Assembly (NCBI GenBank): GCA_013373595.1
Contig: JABXHO010000079.1
Location: 1 to 34,446 of the forward strand
Reading direction: 5' to 3'
Length of the DNA stretch: 34,446 bases
Source of the DNA: Flavobacteriales bacterium
GTDB lineage: Bacteria; Bacteroidota; Bacteroidia; Flavobacteriales_D; Crocinitomicaceae
Part shown: piece by piece, positions 12,583-23,424 of the stretch
Position numbering within the stretch: the stretch's first letter is position 1
How the letters are laid out: the number at the start of each line of letters is the position of its first letter
The notes under the pieces: model-generated
Database searches by the model: none
Told to the model about the DNA's origin: nothing
What the model saw: the letters and a program-made list of their open reading frames with translations, nothing else
Translations under genes and position numbers: made by a program

Positions 12583-13578
12583 ATGAAATGTCTTCTACCC
12601 ATTCTTATTTTTTTTGCAAGTTATAGCAACGCACAAGTACCGCTTAAAGATCTCCCTGGAGTCGTGAATGGCTCACCGTGGATGAATACCCATATTCCGA
12701 CCAAACAAGTCATTCCATACCCATATATTGCCGAGCGTGATGTACTATGGAGTAAACGAATCTGGCGGGCAATCGATATGAGAGAGAAAATCAATCAACC
12801 GATTTATTACCCACTGGACGAAGTAACGTCGCTTGAATGGATTACCAATGCATCTCGATGGAGTCTCTGGACCATTATTCGAAAGCATGTCATGGAGGGT
12901 GATTTACGTGTTTTTTCACCGTACAACCCTGTGAGCTACGGCTTGGGAGCTTGGGATGGTGATCAACTGAAATATCCTGTTGATCCCGAACCGGGTGAAA
13001 ATTATTATACGGATGCGAATTTTCGTTCGGACTTATTGTATTACCTCGGACGCCTCGGACCTCAAAGTGATATCCAATTAGTAGGGGATGATGGACAACC
13101 GTTGGTGGAAATCGATGAGAATGGAATGGAGAGCTTTGTGTATGAATCACCTGATACGTTTTGGTACGAGTCGAAAGACATTGTGGAATACCGTTTGAAA
13201 GAAGATTGGTTCTTTGATAAACAACGGGGAGAGCTAGACGTACGCATCATCGCAATTGCACCAGTTGTATACGACAAAACTTACGATAGTCAGGGCAATG
13301 AAGAGATTGTTGGTAAGAAGGAATTGTTTTGGCTGTATTTCCCGCACTGCCGTTTTATCTTCAATAACTATTTCACCTACAATGAGAAAAACGACGCACA
13401 GTGGATGAGTTTCGATGATTTATTCTGGAAGCGGAAATTCAGCAGCTACATTTACAAAGAAAGCAACGTGGCAGATCGTTCCATTAACAGTTATGCACAC
13501 GGTGTGGACGCGCTTTATGAATCAGAACAAATTACCCAAGAAATACGAAACTTTGAACACGATATTTGGTCGTATTAA
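12583..13578 (+). CDS. gldO: GldN paralogue (GldO-like)
   Basis: A 331-aa protein with a signal peptide (cleavage after about residue 17, SNAQV) and the same domain as GldN. It shares exact blocks with the gldN product such as REKINQP, SRWSLWTII, GDLRVFSPYNP, WDGDQLKYP and FPHCRF, and both end in EHDIWS plus an aromatic residue. Differences cluster in the N-terminal 30 residues, the middle (about 130-165) and a loop near residue 230. F. johnsoniae also has gldN and gldO side by side with partly redundant function; whether this is the same ancient duplication or a new one cannot be told here. A terminator precedes it, so it needs its own promoter, which I could not identify. GGAG lies 6 bases before the ATG. 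Confidence 0.9.
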   Translation: MKCLLPILIFFASYSNAQVPLKDLPGVVNGSPWMNTHIPTKQVIPYPYIAERDVLWSKRIWRAIDMREKINQPIYYPLDEVTSLEWITNASRWSLWTIIRKHVMEGDLRVFSPYNPVSYGLGAWDGDQLKYPVDPEPGENYYTDANFRSDLLYYLGRLGPQSDIQLVGDDGQPLVEIDENGMESFVYESPDTFWYESKDIVEYRLKEDWFFDKQRGELDVRIIAIAPVVYDKTYDSQGNEEIVGKKELFWLYFPHCRFIFNNYFTYNEKNDAQWMSFDDLFWKRKFSSYIYKESNVADRSINSYAHGVDALYESEQITQEIRNFEHDIWSY

Positions 13579-13727: not shown

Positions 13728-14756
13728 TTAATCGTTTAGATCCCAAGAGTACTCTTTGTAAGTGATTTTTTGCTTGTCCAACTGATCTGTTCGGTACTTG
13801 TTAATGAAATCAAACACGGTTTTTCCACCTTTGGTGAAGTCCTCTTCGTACCATTGGAAGATTTGCGAAATCTGTACTTCTTTCTTTCCATAGGTATTCT
13901 TGGATGTATCGTTCAAGAAACGCTTTGTTTGTGTTGTCATTTGTCCATAAACAGAACCAGGTGTGTAGGCTCTGTTAAGAAGTATTGGACAGGATTCACT
14001 CGCACAATTGAGTGCAAAGTGGATACGTGGCTCATTGAAACGCTTACGGATTACGTCATTCTCAATTTGATTTAGAGAATACGTTTGTCCACCCAGCTGA
14101 ATGAATTTTTTATGCCAAGGTTTCGCAGTAATCTTCGTGATAGAAGACGTTGGGAAATTATCCACAATCAATTTGATGGTGTAAATGTTATAGGCATTGA
14201 TCCAATACGTTAGTTTTTGTGCCGATGACCAACCCGAACCAGGATAATTCGATTCGAACTCTTTCAAGATTTCGTCCAGTTTCGATTTATTGGCTTTGAT
14301 TCCAGCATAGTTTACATTTCCGCTTGAAGAAACATACGTTGAGAGCAATGAATTCAAGTTTTTGTACTCATGGAAATTGTAGTTGTCTTCAGCCTCAACC
14401 ACTTTTTCTTCAGGAATTTCAATTTCTACAGGTGGAATTGTTTCATCCTTCAATAAAACGCCTTCCTCAGCAATTTCTCTCAATTCTTCAGCAGTAGCTG
14501 GTACTGTTCGCTCAACCTTGGTTCCATCTTCTTTGGTTTCCACACGCGTGATTACCTGATTACCATCCTCATCAAGTGAAATGATCGCCTTGTCCTTATT
14601 TTCTGTTTCAGTTTCTGAATTCGATTCAGTCTTTTGCTCTGTTTTCGTCTCGTTGTCATTTTCGTCAGAAGGTGTTTCCGTTGAAGAATCGTTGCACGAA
14701 GAAAATACAAGTGCAAAGGCAAATGGTGCTAGAAGGTAAAATGTACGTGTTTTCAT
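13728..14756 (-). CDS. DUF547 domain lipoprotein
   Basis: A 342-aa lipoprotein: the start at ATG 14756 gives MKTRTFYLLAPFAFALVFSSC with a lipobox ending at Cys. A low-complexity acidic linker rich in Glu, Thr, Asn and Asp follows to about residue 125. The C-terminal DUF547 domain (about 130-335) has LTYWINAYNIYTI, RIHFALNCAS and FQWYEEDF. DUF547 proteins are widespread in Bacteroidota and other bacteria; their function is unknown, and some lie near proteins of thiol and redox metabolism. The linker probably lets the domain reach away from the membrane. The upstream unknown gene ends 38 bases before this start, suggesting co-transcription. An alternative start further upstream at 14792 would add 12 residues and spoil the signal peptide. 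Confidence 0.88.
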   Translation of the reverse strand: MKTRTFYLLAPFAFALVFSSCNDSSTETPSDENDNETKTEQKTESNSETETENKDKAIISLDEDGNQVITRVETKEDGTKVERTVPATAEELREIAEEGVLLKDETIPPVEIEIPEEKVVEAEDNYNFHEYKNLNSLLSTYVSSSGNVNYAGIKANKSKLDEILKEFESNYPGSGWSSAQKLTYWINAYNIYTIKLIVDNFPTSSITKITAKPWHKKFIQLGGQTYSLNQIENDVIRKRFNEPRIHFALNCASESCPILLNRAYTPGSVYGQMTTQTKRFLNDTSKNTYGKKEVQISQIFQWYEEDFTKGGKTVFDFINKYRTDQLDKQKITYKEYSWDLND

Positions 14757-14794
14757 AATGGTGTGACGGATAAGTAATCGTTTACTTACCAAAG

Positions 14795-16615: not shown

Positions 16616-17644
16616 TTGAATAAACTTTTTTTACTCGGATTTTCCGCATTTGCACTTCTCGTATTTATTGGATCGGGATTTAGTTCTGGCAAAATCGACC
16701 AAATTGACCCGAATGCATATTCGGTAGAGCAGGTTCTCAATCAGTTGGGAGACACGCCACTCAATCACTCCATTAGTCAAGTAGACTTGGCAAAAGCCAA
16801 AATGGGAGAAGAGCTCATCTTCAACGGATATACAATGCGCGACGGCAAAAAGTCAAAACGCATTTCAACGTATTTCGTTTGTACAGACTGCCACAATACC
16901 ACGAAAGAATTTAGCGATATCAGTAGTCAATCAACAGATGACCGATTGAAATATGCTCAAGAAAATGGTCTTCCGTTTTTGCCGGGATCAACCTTGTGGG
17001 GAATCTACAATCGAACGTCGTTCTACAACGATGACTACGTGAAAAAGTATGGAGACTTGGTAGATGATGCAAGACATTCGCTTCCGAACTCGGTGCAATT
17101 GTGCTCGAAATACTGTTCATCGGGTCGCTACATTGAAGATTGGGAACTCGATGCAATCATGCACTATTTCAAAAAGAACGAGTTAAAAATTGGTGATCTC
17201 GATTTATCCGATAAAGACCTTTACGCAATCGTAAAAGGAGGGTTGTCTTCAGCAGAAAAAAGTGAGCTGATCAAATCCATTAAAGGTTCGTACAGACAGT
17301 CGTATTCTGCTACATTCATGGAAACAATGGATCGAAGCGAACGCAAATATGGTAAAGGAGGAAATGTGGAAAATGGTAAATACATCTACGAGAATGCATG
17401 TATGTACTGTCACGAAAACAAACGTGTGACCTACCTTCACCTAGACAATGGAAAACTTTCTGGACGCTTTCTATGGAAAAATCGTAAAAATTGGTCCGAT
17501 CAGTCAGTTTATCAAATTGTACGACACGGAACCTATTCGAAAATTGGTAGACAGCAATACATGCCGCACTACACCAAGGAAAAAATGAGCGATGAACAAT
17601 TAAACGACCTCGTTGCTTATATCAAACAAATTGCGAAAAAATGA
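16616..17644 (+). CDS. Diheme cytochrome c
   Basis: A 342-aa exported protein with two CXXCH haem-binding motifs, CTDCH (residues 89-93) and CMYCH (262-266). The second is followed at the right distance by YMPHYTKEKMSDEQLNDLVAYI, whose Met is a likely distal ligand of a class I cytochrome c. The first 20 residues are a hydrophobic signal or anchor. The start is TTG at 16616: a stop lies 22 bases upstream in frame, and the first internal ATG (residue 63) would remove the export signal. It is the first of four genes with overlaps or short gaps; the next begins at its ATGA stop. A periplasmic electron carrier is the likely role. The middle (residues 100-245) carries a further Cys pair, LCSKYC, outside any haem motif. 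Confidence 0.85.
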   Translation: MNKLFLLGFSAFALLVFIGSGFSSGKIDQIDPNAYSVEQVLNQLGDTPLNHSISQVDLAKAKMGEELIFNGYTMRDGKKSKRISTYFVCTDCHNTTKEFSDISSQSTDDRLKYAQENGLPFLPGSTLWGIYNRTSFYNDDYVKKYGDLVDDARHSLPNSVQLCSKYCSSGRYIEDWELDAIMHYFKKNELKIGDLDLSDKDLYAIVKGGLSSAEKSELIKSIKGSYRQSYSATFMETMDRSERKYGKGGNVENGKYIYENACMYCHENKRVTYLHLDNGKLSGRFLWKNRKNWSDQSVYQIVRHGTYSKIGRQQYMPHYTKEKMSDEQLNDLVAYIKQIAKK

Positions 17645-18495
17645 TAAAACAACTACTCGTGCTGTCTTGCCTTGCTTTGGCATCAGCTTCACACGCACAA
17701 AACGTAGAAGAAACGTTTACTGGAACACGCGTGATTAATGGTCACTCTGTTGAGACCCTCAAGGGTCGAATTCTCGAGTTTCGAATTGAACACCGTTTTG
17801 GTGATATCGCTGGAACAAATGGTGGAGTGCAGCAGTTCTTTGGATTCGATCAAGCGGCGGATATTCGCTTTGCCTTCGAATATGGTTTAACAGATAAATG
17901 GATGATTGGTCTCGGAAGATCAAAGGGAACAGGAAGCCCATATCGCTCGCTTGTCGACGGATTTACGAAGTACAGAATCTTGACGCAGGAAAAAGATGGT
18001 ACGCCATTAAGTTTAGCTGCGATGGGTTCTGCTGTAATTTCCTATCAACAAGCATCGGATGATCTTACTCAGGTAATTAGCTATCCAAAATTTTCACACA
18101 GAATGGCATACAGCGCACAAATAATTGCTGCTCGAAAGTTCGGTGAGAAGTTGAGCCTGCAAATCATGCCAACATATGTACATCGAAACCTGGTAACGAA
18201 TGACGATTCGAATGGCTTGTTCTCATTAGGAGGAGCCATCAACTATAAATTCAATAAAACCTACGGGCTTATCGTTGAATATTACCAGAATTTCAATCCT
18301 GCGGGACTTCGTGAAAACATGAAAAATAGTCTGGGTGTGGCATTTGAGTGGACAACCAACGGACACAATTTCAAAATGAACTTTACCAACTCGCGTGGTT
18401 TCGGAGAAACACAATTCATTCCGTACACAACATCAGATTGGTTAGCGGGTGAGTTCCGATTTGGATTCAGTATTTCTAGAAAATTTAAGCTATGA
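17641..18495 (+). CDS. DUF5777-family outer-membrane beta-barrel protein
   Basis: A 284-aa protein with a signal peptide (MIKQLLVLSCLALASASHAQ, cleavage after about residue 20). The mature part has amphipathic beta-strands throughout and aromatic-rich motifs such as EFRIEHRFGDI and IRFAFEYGLTDKWMIGLG, and it ends in SISRKFKL, as expected for a barrel of about 12-14 strands. I place it in DUF5777 from memory of these motifs. The function of the family is not known. Its start overlaps the stop of the diheme cytochrome gene by 4 bases (ATGA), and its own stop overlaps the next gene in the same way, so the three products are translationally coupled. This suggests a joint role, perhaps as a pore or scaffold for the cytochromes. 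Confidence 0.8.
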   Translation: MIKQLLVLSCLALASASHAQNVEETFTGTRVINGHSVETLKGRILEFRIEHRFGDIAGTNGGVQQFFGFDQAADIRFAFEYGLTDKWMIGLGRSKGTGSPYRSLVDGFTKYRILTQEKDGTPLSLAAMGSAVISYQQASDDLTQVISYPKFSHRMAYSAQIIAARKFGEKLSLQIMPTYVHRNLVTNDDSNGLFSLGGAINYKFNKTYGLIVEYYQNFNPAGLRENMKNSLGVAFEWTTNGHNFKMNFTNSRGFGETQFIPYTTSDWLAGEFRFGFSISRKFKL

Positions 18496-18875
18496 GAAAA
18501 ACATCGTACATAATACTTGGATTGGTGACGTTTGTATTAATGGCTGTCTCTGTCGCTTCGTGTAACAAAGATAAAACGCTCATTGAACCCGTTGTAGATA
18601 ATTCAGCGTGTCCAGATACCATTTCTTTTGCCGCAACTGTGGAGCCGCTCATTCAAGCAAATTGCTCTACAAGTGGTTGTCACGACGCTGCAACTGCAAC
18701 AAGTGGATACAATTTAGAAGGCTACGTAAATATTTCTACCAACGCTAACATCATTTCTGACGTTATTAACCACAATAGCGGTCCTACTCCAATGCCTTTT
18801 GGACAGCCAAAGTTGAATGATACACTTATCCAACAATTCGATTGCTGGGTGGCTCAAGGTACGCTGGACAACTAA
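18492..18875 (+). CDS. Lipoprotein with a CX4CH haem-binding motif
   Basis: A 127-aa lipoprotein: the signal ends at VASC (Cys24). The motif CSTSGCH (residues 58-64) is a CX4CH variant of the cytochrome c haem site, a spacing known from cytochromes c3 of Desulfovibrio. The context EPLIQANC ... GCHDAATATSGYNLEGY and the closing FDCWVAQGTLDN resemble Bacteroidota planctomycete-type cytochrome lipoproteins. A Met in TPMPFGQPKL could be the second ligand. It is translationally coupled to the beta-barrel gene (4-base overlap). If the lipoprotein faces outward, it could receive electrons passed through the barrel; this is inference. Haem attachment itself is not proven by the motif. Confidence 0.75.
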   Translation: MRKTSYIILGLVTFVLMAVSVASCNKDKTLIEPVVDNSACPDTISFAATVEPLIQANCSTSGCHDAATATSGYNLEGYVNISTNANIISDVINHNSGPTPMPFGQPKLNDTLIQQFDCWVAQGTLDN

Positions 18876-18904
18876 ATTTTATAACTTAAACACAAACAAA
18901 AACT

Positions 18905-19777
18905 ATGAAAAAAGGCTACATCTTAACTTCGTTGGCATTAGCATCAATCGGATTCTTCGCTTTTCAGAATGCTGGTGAATCTAGCGTTATTGGAGAGTTC
19001 AACAAAGAACACTTCCAATCAGGCGGAGGACAATCTGGCTTAACAGGAGCTCCTGGAGAACAAAACTGTACACAATGTCACACAGGATCAGTTTTAGATG
19101 GTTCTTCTGAGAATTCATTTGCCTTGTTAGACGGAACAACACCTGTTACAGCTTACGTTCCAGGAACAACATACACAGCAACACTTCAGCAAACATCATC
19201 TCCATCAAAATCTGGCTTCTCTTCAACAACTTTGGACGGAACAGATGCAATGGCCGGATCGTTAATTGGAGCTGGAATTGGAGGAACACAAAACTTTTCA
19301 TCAGGTTCACGTGATTATGTTTCACATACATCTGCAAGTAATACTTCTGGACAATTTGCTTGGTCGTGGGTAGCACCAGCAACGGATGTTGGACCTGTTA
19401 CATTCTACATCGCTTCGAACATTGCGAACGACAATGGTAACACTACAGGCGATATGATTTACTTATCGACGCACACCATCGGTTCTACAGCAAGTGTTGA
19501 TGAGCAAGATGTAATCGATTCTAAATTCACAGCAGGATACAACGCAACTTCGAATAAATTGGTTGTTGATTTCACTTCTCTTGCAATGGGAGAAATGAAC
19601 TTGAACTTGGTTGACTTGAACGGAAAATCTGTATTCACGTACAACTTGGGTCAATCTGAAGTAGGAGAGAACCACGAAACAATTGCACTTCCTTCTAGTT
19701 TGGATGATGGAATTTACATTGTTCACTTCTTCGTAGGAAACAAAGCAATGTCTGCAAATATCATGGTGAAGAAATAA
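18905..19777 (+). CDS. Secreted CXXCH protein with a T9SS sorting domain
   Basis: A 290-aa protein with a signal peptide (about residues 1-24), then GAPGEQNCTQCHTG with a cytochrome-type CXXCH (Cys55, Cys58, His59), and a beta-sandwich of about 130 residues of the kind called choice-of-anchor V or reeler-like. The last 85 residues form a type A C-terminal sorting domain of the type IX secretion system (VDLNGKSVF, DDGIYIVHFFV, ending IMVKK). It should therefore be exported across the outer membrane by the machinery encoded at 6002-13578 and be released or anchored outside. It follows the CX4CH lipoprotein by 29 bases and is the last gene before a terminator. Whether the CXXCH carries haem is unknown. 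Confidence 0.82.
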   Translation: MKKGYILTSLALASIGFFAFQNAGESSVIGEFNKEHFQSGGGQSGLTGAPGEQNCTQCHTGSVLDGSSENSFALLDGTTPVTAYVPGTTYTATLQQTSSPSKSGFSSTTLDGTDAMAGSLIGAGIGGTQNFSSGSRDYVSHTSASNTSGQFAWSWVAPATDVGPVTFYIASNIANDNGNTTGDMIYLSTHTIGSTASVDEQDVIDSKFTAGYNATSNKLVVDFTSLAMGEMNLNLVDLNGKSVFTYNLGQSEVGENHETIALPSSLDDGIYIVHFFVGNKAMSANIMVKK

Positions 19778-19797
19778 GACTTCAACAAAATAGATTG

Positions 19798-19827
19798 AAA
19801 TCCCACTTGAAAGAGTGGGATTTTTTT
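19798..19827 (+). terminator. Intrinsic terminator of the cytochrome operon
   Basis: AAATCCCACT and AGTGGGATTT form a perfect 10-base stem (19798-19807 with 19814-19823) with a six-base loop, running into a T-run to 19827. It lies 20 bases after the stop of the last operon gene and may also serve the convergent SRPBCC gene. Confidence 0.92.
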
Positions 19828-23046: not shown

Positions 23047-23424
23047 ATGACTCTACCAAAAGAAAATTGGAACAAACTCAACGAGGAAGAACAGCGCGTC
23101 ATTTTACGTAAAGGAACGGAAATGCCATTTACGGGAGAGTACGATAAACACAAAGGTGACGGAATCTACGTTTGTCGACAGTGTGAAGCACCTTTGTATC
23201 ATTCTCAGGATAAGTTCAATTCAGGTTGCGGCTGGCCTTCTTTTGATGATGAAATTGAAGGAGCTGTGAGAAGAGAAACAGATGCAGACGGAAGAAGAAC
23301 AGAAATTCTGTGCGCCAACTGCGGAGGACATCTTGGACACGTGTTTACGGGTGAACAATTCACTTCGAAAAACACGCGTCATTGCGTCAATTCGATCTCG
23401 CTAAAATTCGTCGAACACGAATAG
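23047..23424 (+). CDS. msrB: Peptide-methionine (R)-S-oxide reductase MsrB
   Basis: A 125-aa enzyme that repairs methionine-R-sulfoxide in proteins, using thioredoxin. Two CXXC pairs, CRQC (43-46) and CANC (89-92), hold the structural zinc. The family motif CGWPSF is at 61-66 and the catalytic cysteine is Cys113 in [11 protein letters not shown]. No signal peptide is seen, so it acts in the cytosol. It follows the DUF4836-like lipoprotein by 14 bases. It is not fused to MsrA, unlike in some bacteria. Confidence 0.97.

Follow-up and report, generated by a model that had tools for sequence, protein, structure and literature searches.

A candidate outer-membrane redox module of aerobic Bacteroidota: a dihaem cytochrome, DUF5777 barrel and haem-motif lipoprotein operon in a Crocinitomicaceae genome

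In the MtrCAB system of Shewanella a periplasmic cytochrome, an outer-membrane barrel and outer cytochromes are encoded together; an MtrB-type barrel has about 26-28 strands and sheaths its cytochrome, and MtrCAB carries about 10+10 haems. The fused cytochrome-porin Cyc2 combines a small barrel with a single small cytochrome. A third relevant system is that of Burkholderia cenocepacia, in which the YceI lipocalin BcnA, a linked cytochrome b561 (LcoA) and an aldehyde reductase are described as guarding the envelope from lipid peroxyl radicals; the system is reported to depend on oxygen, and isoprenoids or ubiquinone-8 have been found in association with YceI lipocalins (PMC9113575). Here we describe a four-gene operon (genes A to D) in a 34,446-nucleotide stretch of DNA, referred to below as the window (contig JABXHO010000079.1 of assembly GCA_013373595.1), from a Flavobacteriales bacterium of the family Crocinitomicaceae. 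The reading that we favour, tentatively and with a little less than even confidence, is that the operon encodes one form of a redox module that aerobic Bacteroidota would have at their outer membrane; its periplasmic carrier, either the dihaem cytochrome A or YceI, would be exchangeable and would serve the lipoprotein C and, in some lineages, the exported protein D, which has a sorting domain of the type IX secretion system (T9SS) type. The features of the operon are as follows.

16616..17644, forward strand: gene A, predicted periplasmic dihaem c-type cytochrome, 342 amino acids, TTG start
16880..16894, forward strand: first haem motif of A, CTDCH, residues 89-93; C89, C92 and H93 invariant in 12/12 sequences
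17399..17413, forward strand: second haem motif of A, CMYCH, residues 262-266; C262, C265 and H266 invariant in 12/12 sequences
17641..18495, forward strand: gene B, DUF5777 outer-membrane beta-barrel, 284 amino acids, 12 strands in the model
18492..18875, forward strand: gene C, small haem-motif lipoprotein, 127 amino acids, with lipobox Cys24, a CX4CH motif and invariant Met101-Pro102
18663..18683, forward strand: haem motif of C, CSTSGCH (CX4CH)
18905..19777, forward strand: gene D, 290 amino acids, with a choice-of-anchor V (weakly Reeler-like) domain, a CXXCH motif and a T9SS type A-like C-terminal sorting domain
19067..19081, forward strand: haem motif of D, CTQCH; C55, C58 and H59 invariant in 9/9 sequences
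19547..19774, forward strand: C-terminal sorting domain of D, from Pfam/NCBIfam profile matches
19797..19824, forward strand: intrinsic-terminator-like hairpin of 12 pairs followed by a T run, from the terminator scan

The A/B and B/C junctions each share the bases ATGA, and 29 bases separate C from D. The -4 overlap recurs at 15 of 27 A-B junctions and 15 of 25 B-C junctions (the window being included in both), and these overlaps, together with motif residues that are invariant in the alignments, point to an arrangement beyond chance. The sequence thus supports A to D as a conserved, co-transcribed-looking set that comprises haem-motif proteins, an outer-membrane barrel, a lipoprotein and a T9SS-type cargo. 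An earlier note on this DNA had described the same four genes, with their coordinates, overlaps and gap, and all of these were recovered as described, as were the haem motifs and the lipobox of C, with the motif residues invariant in family alignments. The same note had placed a strong terminator after D; the hairpin with its T run is indeed present, but the four terminator-like sites in 3.6 kb compare with 2.6 +/- 1.6 in shuffles, so that the count by itself is within chance. No sigma-70-like promoter was found upstream of A in a site scan. The genome that contains the window (4.69 Mb in 179 contigs) is 99.9% complete, and the closest named relatives of B, at 80-85% identity, are in metagenome genomes of Crocinitomicaceae and Fluviicola.

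The operon is similar to MtrCAB in that a periplasmic cytochrome, a barrel and outer haem-motif proteins are encoded together. It differs in the barrel, which has 12 strands in the model, and in the haem motifs, which number 2+1+1 (A, C and D), a low count that had been remarked upon before; it also shows no homology to MtrB/PioB (PF11854, no matches in the window's genome at E <= 0.001) and is linked to aerobic respiration. Three defining features of porin-cytochrome complexes were tested, the haem count within the operon and not in the genome at large, and none was found; the module lies outside that group. An MtrCAB-type conduit was accordingly rejected as the principal interpretation on the strength of the 12 strands, the lack of an MtrB/PioB match, the few haem motifs and the aerobic link, and a Cyc2-type fusion was rejected because the chains are separate polypeptides here, with the cytochrome lipid-anchored. 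The earlier note had inferred a possible small counterpart of MtrCAB, which these observations and the alternation of A with YceI described below do not bear out; its fallback, a redox-sensing or substrate-oxidizing role, comes closer to the evidence.

The resemblance to BcnA-LcoA is of another kind. There, as in many of the loci analysed here, a periplasmic quinone-binding lipocalin is linked to a haem protein, and among the alternatives to A beside B, YceI is the most frequent; the difference is that c-type haem-motif proteins are predicted at the outer membrane around a barrel. The module resembles the YceI-cytochrome defence in parts, with a different predicted cell address and a different type of cytochrome. 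A YceI gene is also listed in a table of iron-responsive genes in a further paper, where the operon is not mentioned (PMC5429918). No description of the module was found among the literature matches listed (titles and the starts of abstracts), nor were any papers naming DUF5777 found in the literature search; we rate the A/YceI-B-C(-D) module as new in the sense of an envelope redox variant, the DUF5777 family by itself being known.

The conservation of gene order was examined in 137 stretches, consisting of part of the window, 19 related loci and 117 stretches from other genomes. These gave 124 distinct neighbourhoods with a B of at least 230 amino acids, identical last 200 residues of B being counted once; the sample is non-random, having been enriched in near relatives, in A and in high-scoring B, and its counts are therefore not prevalences. 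(Two stretches, L076 and L087, had no B by single-sequence search; a profile search found B in L076, which was counted.) Gene C lies on the operon strand of B within 4.5 kb in 100 of the 124, and the two are immediate neighbours in 65. The order A-B-C-D, whose recurrence in other genomes the earlier note had proposed as a check, does recur, in 16 neighbourhoods, but only within the window's family, as placed by group codes or, for six loci, by an identical B in a genome of the same genus. The other arrangements that recur often are C-(C)-OB-YceI-B in 14 neighbourhoods, C-B-A in 11 and C-(C)-YceI-B in 10. Pfam searches with representative proteins identified YceI and the OB-fold gene (tRNA_anti-like), and D or a D-like gene is beside B in 25/124. 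Upstream of DUF5777 clusters in L051 (2968-6469, domains assigned by Pfam), L053, L054 and L055 lie genes for a LytTR response regulator and for a histidine kinase that has a regulator propeller, and this pair is a possible regulator of such clusters.

Beside B, A is present in 42 of the 124 neighbourhoods and YceI in 58, and the two never occur together (Fisher 2.8e-16, not corrected for kinship). Unlike BcnA-LcoA, the operon of the window has no YceI, and dihaem A stands beside B. When mapped onto a tree of B, albeit a quick one in which 43 of 121 inner branches are open, the A/YceI label changes at least five times, with A-type B in two separate regions of 31 and 11 rows; the order C-B-A is found in both regions, and A-B-C(-D) and C-A-B in the 31-row region only. 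The window's own genus provides examples, since in L071 and L073 A is missing before B, while YceI and a gene for 131-135 amino acids lie between B and C, and C, D and the flanking genes are retained in position; L077 and L078 have B-C-D with neither A nor YceI. In one of the 42 loci with A (L058), YceI is present further off within the fetched stretch. The alternation would be read naturally as one between two periplasmic redox carriers for the same outer-membrane partner, the C that is encoded beside B.

The distribution of B points to cells that respire oxygen. Of 296 Bacteroidia genomes, 259 have B and 281 have the haem-copper oxidase COX1 (E <= 1e-30); comparing the two lists by hand, we find B in 257/281 COX1-positive and 2/15 COX1-negative genomes (Fisher 1.9e-11, relatedness uncorrected). 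The 13 genomes with neither span seven families and are thus not one clade. This association favours a role in cells that respire oxygen and speaks against dedicated anaerobic extracellular respiration.

We therefore picture the redox module as follows. The periplasmic carrier (dihaem A in the window, the quinone-binding lipocalin YceI in many relatives) would exchange electrons with the haem lipoprotein C, which would be held at the outer membrane adjoining the small barrel B; B would act as a small channel, anchor or lipid-access port and not as an insulating sheath, and in the window's family a second haem protein, D, would be exported via the type IX system. The basis for this picture, namely gene linkage, haem motifs, export-type signals, the alternation beside B and the haem-copper oxidase link, is read from the sequence; we infer that the proteins of the module bind haem, that A and YceI are equivalent in function and that electrons flow to C. 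The use of such a line may be to keep outer-membrane lipids or quinones reduced under oxygen, and control of lipid radicals or peroxides is the most likely of the uses that we can suggest, favoured by the described role of the Burkholderia YceI with cytochrome b561 and the aldehyde reductase (PMC9113575).

Several observations weigh against this reading. C is absent from 24 of the 124 neighbourhoods, and 24 have neither A nor YceI, in a sample whose composition has been noted above. A phylogeny-aware pair test gives only four independent pairs on starred branches (seven on all branches) and is not significant; with a Fisher test blind to relatedness and too few pairs, we claim the alternation as a pattern, not as a proven rule. 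YceI in L071 and L073 is on the other side of B and not in the slot of A, and six further genes for YceI lie outside the operon region in the genome of the window, so that A does not replace YceI cell-wide. The A family itself occupies 28 places in 27 of the 296 Bacteroidia genomes, of which 17 adjoin B and 11 do not (L093, L095, L096, L102-L105, L107 and L109-L111; L102, L104 and L110 sit on contigs of 6-7 kb or less), and A can thus have other partners. The respiratory link also has exceptions, in 24 COX1-positive genomes without B and two COX1-negative genomes with it (G229 and G326).

The haem-attachment motif is kept both in the C family (97/101) and in D-type domains (29/30 with CX2-4CH). 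C has no Pfam family and its NCBIfam matches are weak (best 0.036). Of 101 family members, proteins longer than 150 amino acids being excluded, 51 have CX4CH, 46 have CX2CH and four have neither, and 97 have a Met-Pro; when 12 C proteins are aligned, the CX4CH and CX2CH forms fall in the same columns. Among 30 choice-of-anchor V domains from other Bacteroidia, 20 have CXXCH and nine have CX3CH or CX4CH (L175, L181, L182, L185, L186, L188, L190, L194 and L197); only that of L180, in which the match crosses a TAG codon, is without a motif. The spacing thus alternates in both groups (CX2CH, CX3CH or CX4CH in choice-of-anchor V domains, CX2CH or CX4CH in the C family), and the maturation system may tolerate several spacings. 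The haem-attachment component ResB is represented in the window's genome by a partial match above cut-off in a frame of 1118 amino acids. As regards the location of C, the surface-export signal of Capnocytophaga lipoproteins is reported to be minimally K-(D/E)2, with an optimum of C-X-K-(D/E)2-X (PMC5080379); C begins C-N-K-D-K-T, with K at +3, D at +4 and K at +5, a partial fit to K-(D/E)2.

D matches choice_anch_V at 6.7e-23 (Pfam/NCBIfam), and its single sequence has only a weak match in the PDB (8ofj_B, E 0.26). The sorting domain in the window scores just under the curated cut-offs (21.8 bits against 27 for Pfam, 21.7 against 23 for TIGR04183), but of nine aligned D proteins every one reaches E <= 0.01 with TIGR04183 (best 2.5e-11), in line with the T9SS-type tail that the earlier note assigned to D. 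Type IX machinery is encoded in the same genome, with SprA_N at E 1.7e-153 and matches to GldL, GldM and GldN in the window. Following the GldL and GldM genes there are two tandem gldN-like genes (PF19841; 11377-12399, 2.0e-63, and 12583-13578, 7.8e-67), so that a gldN duplication lies near the type IX cargo of the operon. The choice-of-anchor V domain was found in 71 of 99 genomes sampled, which suggests that D-like proteins are common and mostly located elsewhere.

B is a full-length DUF5777 member (PF19089, its only Pfam match; 5.4e-86, 288.3 bits against a cut-off of 23.1, profile positions 1-247 of 247), and its single sequence gave no PDB match at E <= 10. The model, built from 20 sequences, has a mean predicted local distance difference test (pLDDT) score of 82.1, and an N-terminal segment rich in conserved residues (20-43) may form a plug. 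Its best structural alignments are to KdgM, NanC, FapF and COG4313, with FadL-type channels lower, and these shared folds raise the somewhat unlikely alternative that B serves as a FadL- or KdgM-like port for lipids, isoprenoids or small molecules, with YceI or A and C as accessories for substrate binding or oxidation and no electron line. That YceI lipocalins bind isoprenoids (PMC9113575) would suit such a port; a shared barrel fold is no proof of function, however, and what C and A contain are haem motifs, not ligand-binding folds, C moreover being the most frequent companion of B.

It is also conceivable, if improbable, that the operon encodes an enzyme or sensor, in which A would be a peroxidase- or oxidase-like haem enzyme, C and D redox sensors or electron acceptors, and B an unrelated co-transcribed porin. 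Its appeal lies in the N-terminal half of A. The protein as a whole matches Cytochrome_CBB3 (2.2e-13, Pfam), its TTG start is in register with the orthologue starts in an alignment of 12 members, and the C-terminal half belongs to the class I (CBB3/c6-like) cytochromes, with an invariant Met316-Pro317. The N-terminal half, with one CXXCH motif and the conserved C163 and C167, resembles no solved structure convincingly at the sequence level, and its family matches are weak (Cytochrome_C7 in 10/12 members, CCP_MauG in 1/12). No PDB match to the single sequence of A was found at E <= 0.01; a profile gave 29 at E <= 0.1, of which 28 fall on the c6-like domain and the exception is a weak match of the N-terminal part to 2gtl_N (E 0.065). 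The AlphaFold model of A (12 sequences, mean pLDDT 55.5) was not used for fold searches. The two-component genes upstream of four other clusters would also suit a sensor. However, B and C are the commoner core and A the variable part, and a porin that was merely co-transcribed would be unlikely to stay linked through so many gene orders. Two A genes have one in-frame TAG each (G144 and G222).

Very improbable, finally, is a true transmembrane conduit, with A in the periplasm, B across the membrane and C and the T9SS-delivered D outside, passing respiratory electrons to or from extracellular partners: the operon is conserved, haem-motif proteins are predicted on both sides of the outer membrane, and the C-Xn-CH motif is kept in D-type domains, but D adjoins only a minority of B copies, B follows the haem-copper oxidase, YceI so often takes the place of A, and MtrB/PioB was not found. 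By standard barrel geometry a 12-stranded barrel has its backbone at a radius of about 11 A and a lumen with a radius of about 5 A, far under the size of a holocytochrome (about 30 A), so that the modelled B is too small to sheath one. B is also without a CXXCH motif, and a conduit would need haem held in it some other way; the sole hint is the set of histidines H51, H181 and H242, invariant in 20/20 aligned sequences, which could in principle bind haem.

Other genes near the operon include one for the methionine sulfoxide reductase MsrB downstream of D (23047-23424, SelR 3.5e-45), accompanied by a lipoprotein-like gene for 490 amino acids, a flank that recurs in relatives (the MsrB cluster is in 19 loci). 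On the opposite strand, at 13728-14792, lies a gene for a DUF547 protein (2.5e-27) whose N-terminal stretch is rich in Glu and Asp.

Resistance to lipid peroxidation in Gram-negative bacteria has been called virtually unknown (PMC9113575), and the redox supply and protection of their outer membrane is a poorly known topic. If the redox module is as we propose, its barrel is present in 259 of the 296 sampled Bacteroidia genomes, and the alternation of a quinone lipocalin with a cytochrome beside one barrel would provide a genetic clue to the function of YceI. A type IX-exported c-type cytochrome would likewise be a useful case of a cofactor-loaded cargo. In its fullest form, which we consider unlikely, the proposal is that Bacteroidia that respire oxygen in general supply electrons to their outer membrane through a dedicated line. 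Quinone-loaded YceI and a dihaem cytochrome would be its interchangeable carriers and would keep the haem lipoproteins around the DUF5777 barrel reduced, thereby protecting or repairing outer-membrane lipids, and the window's family would extend the line to the cell surface by means of a type IX-exported cytochrome.

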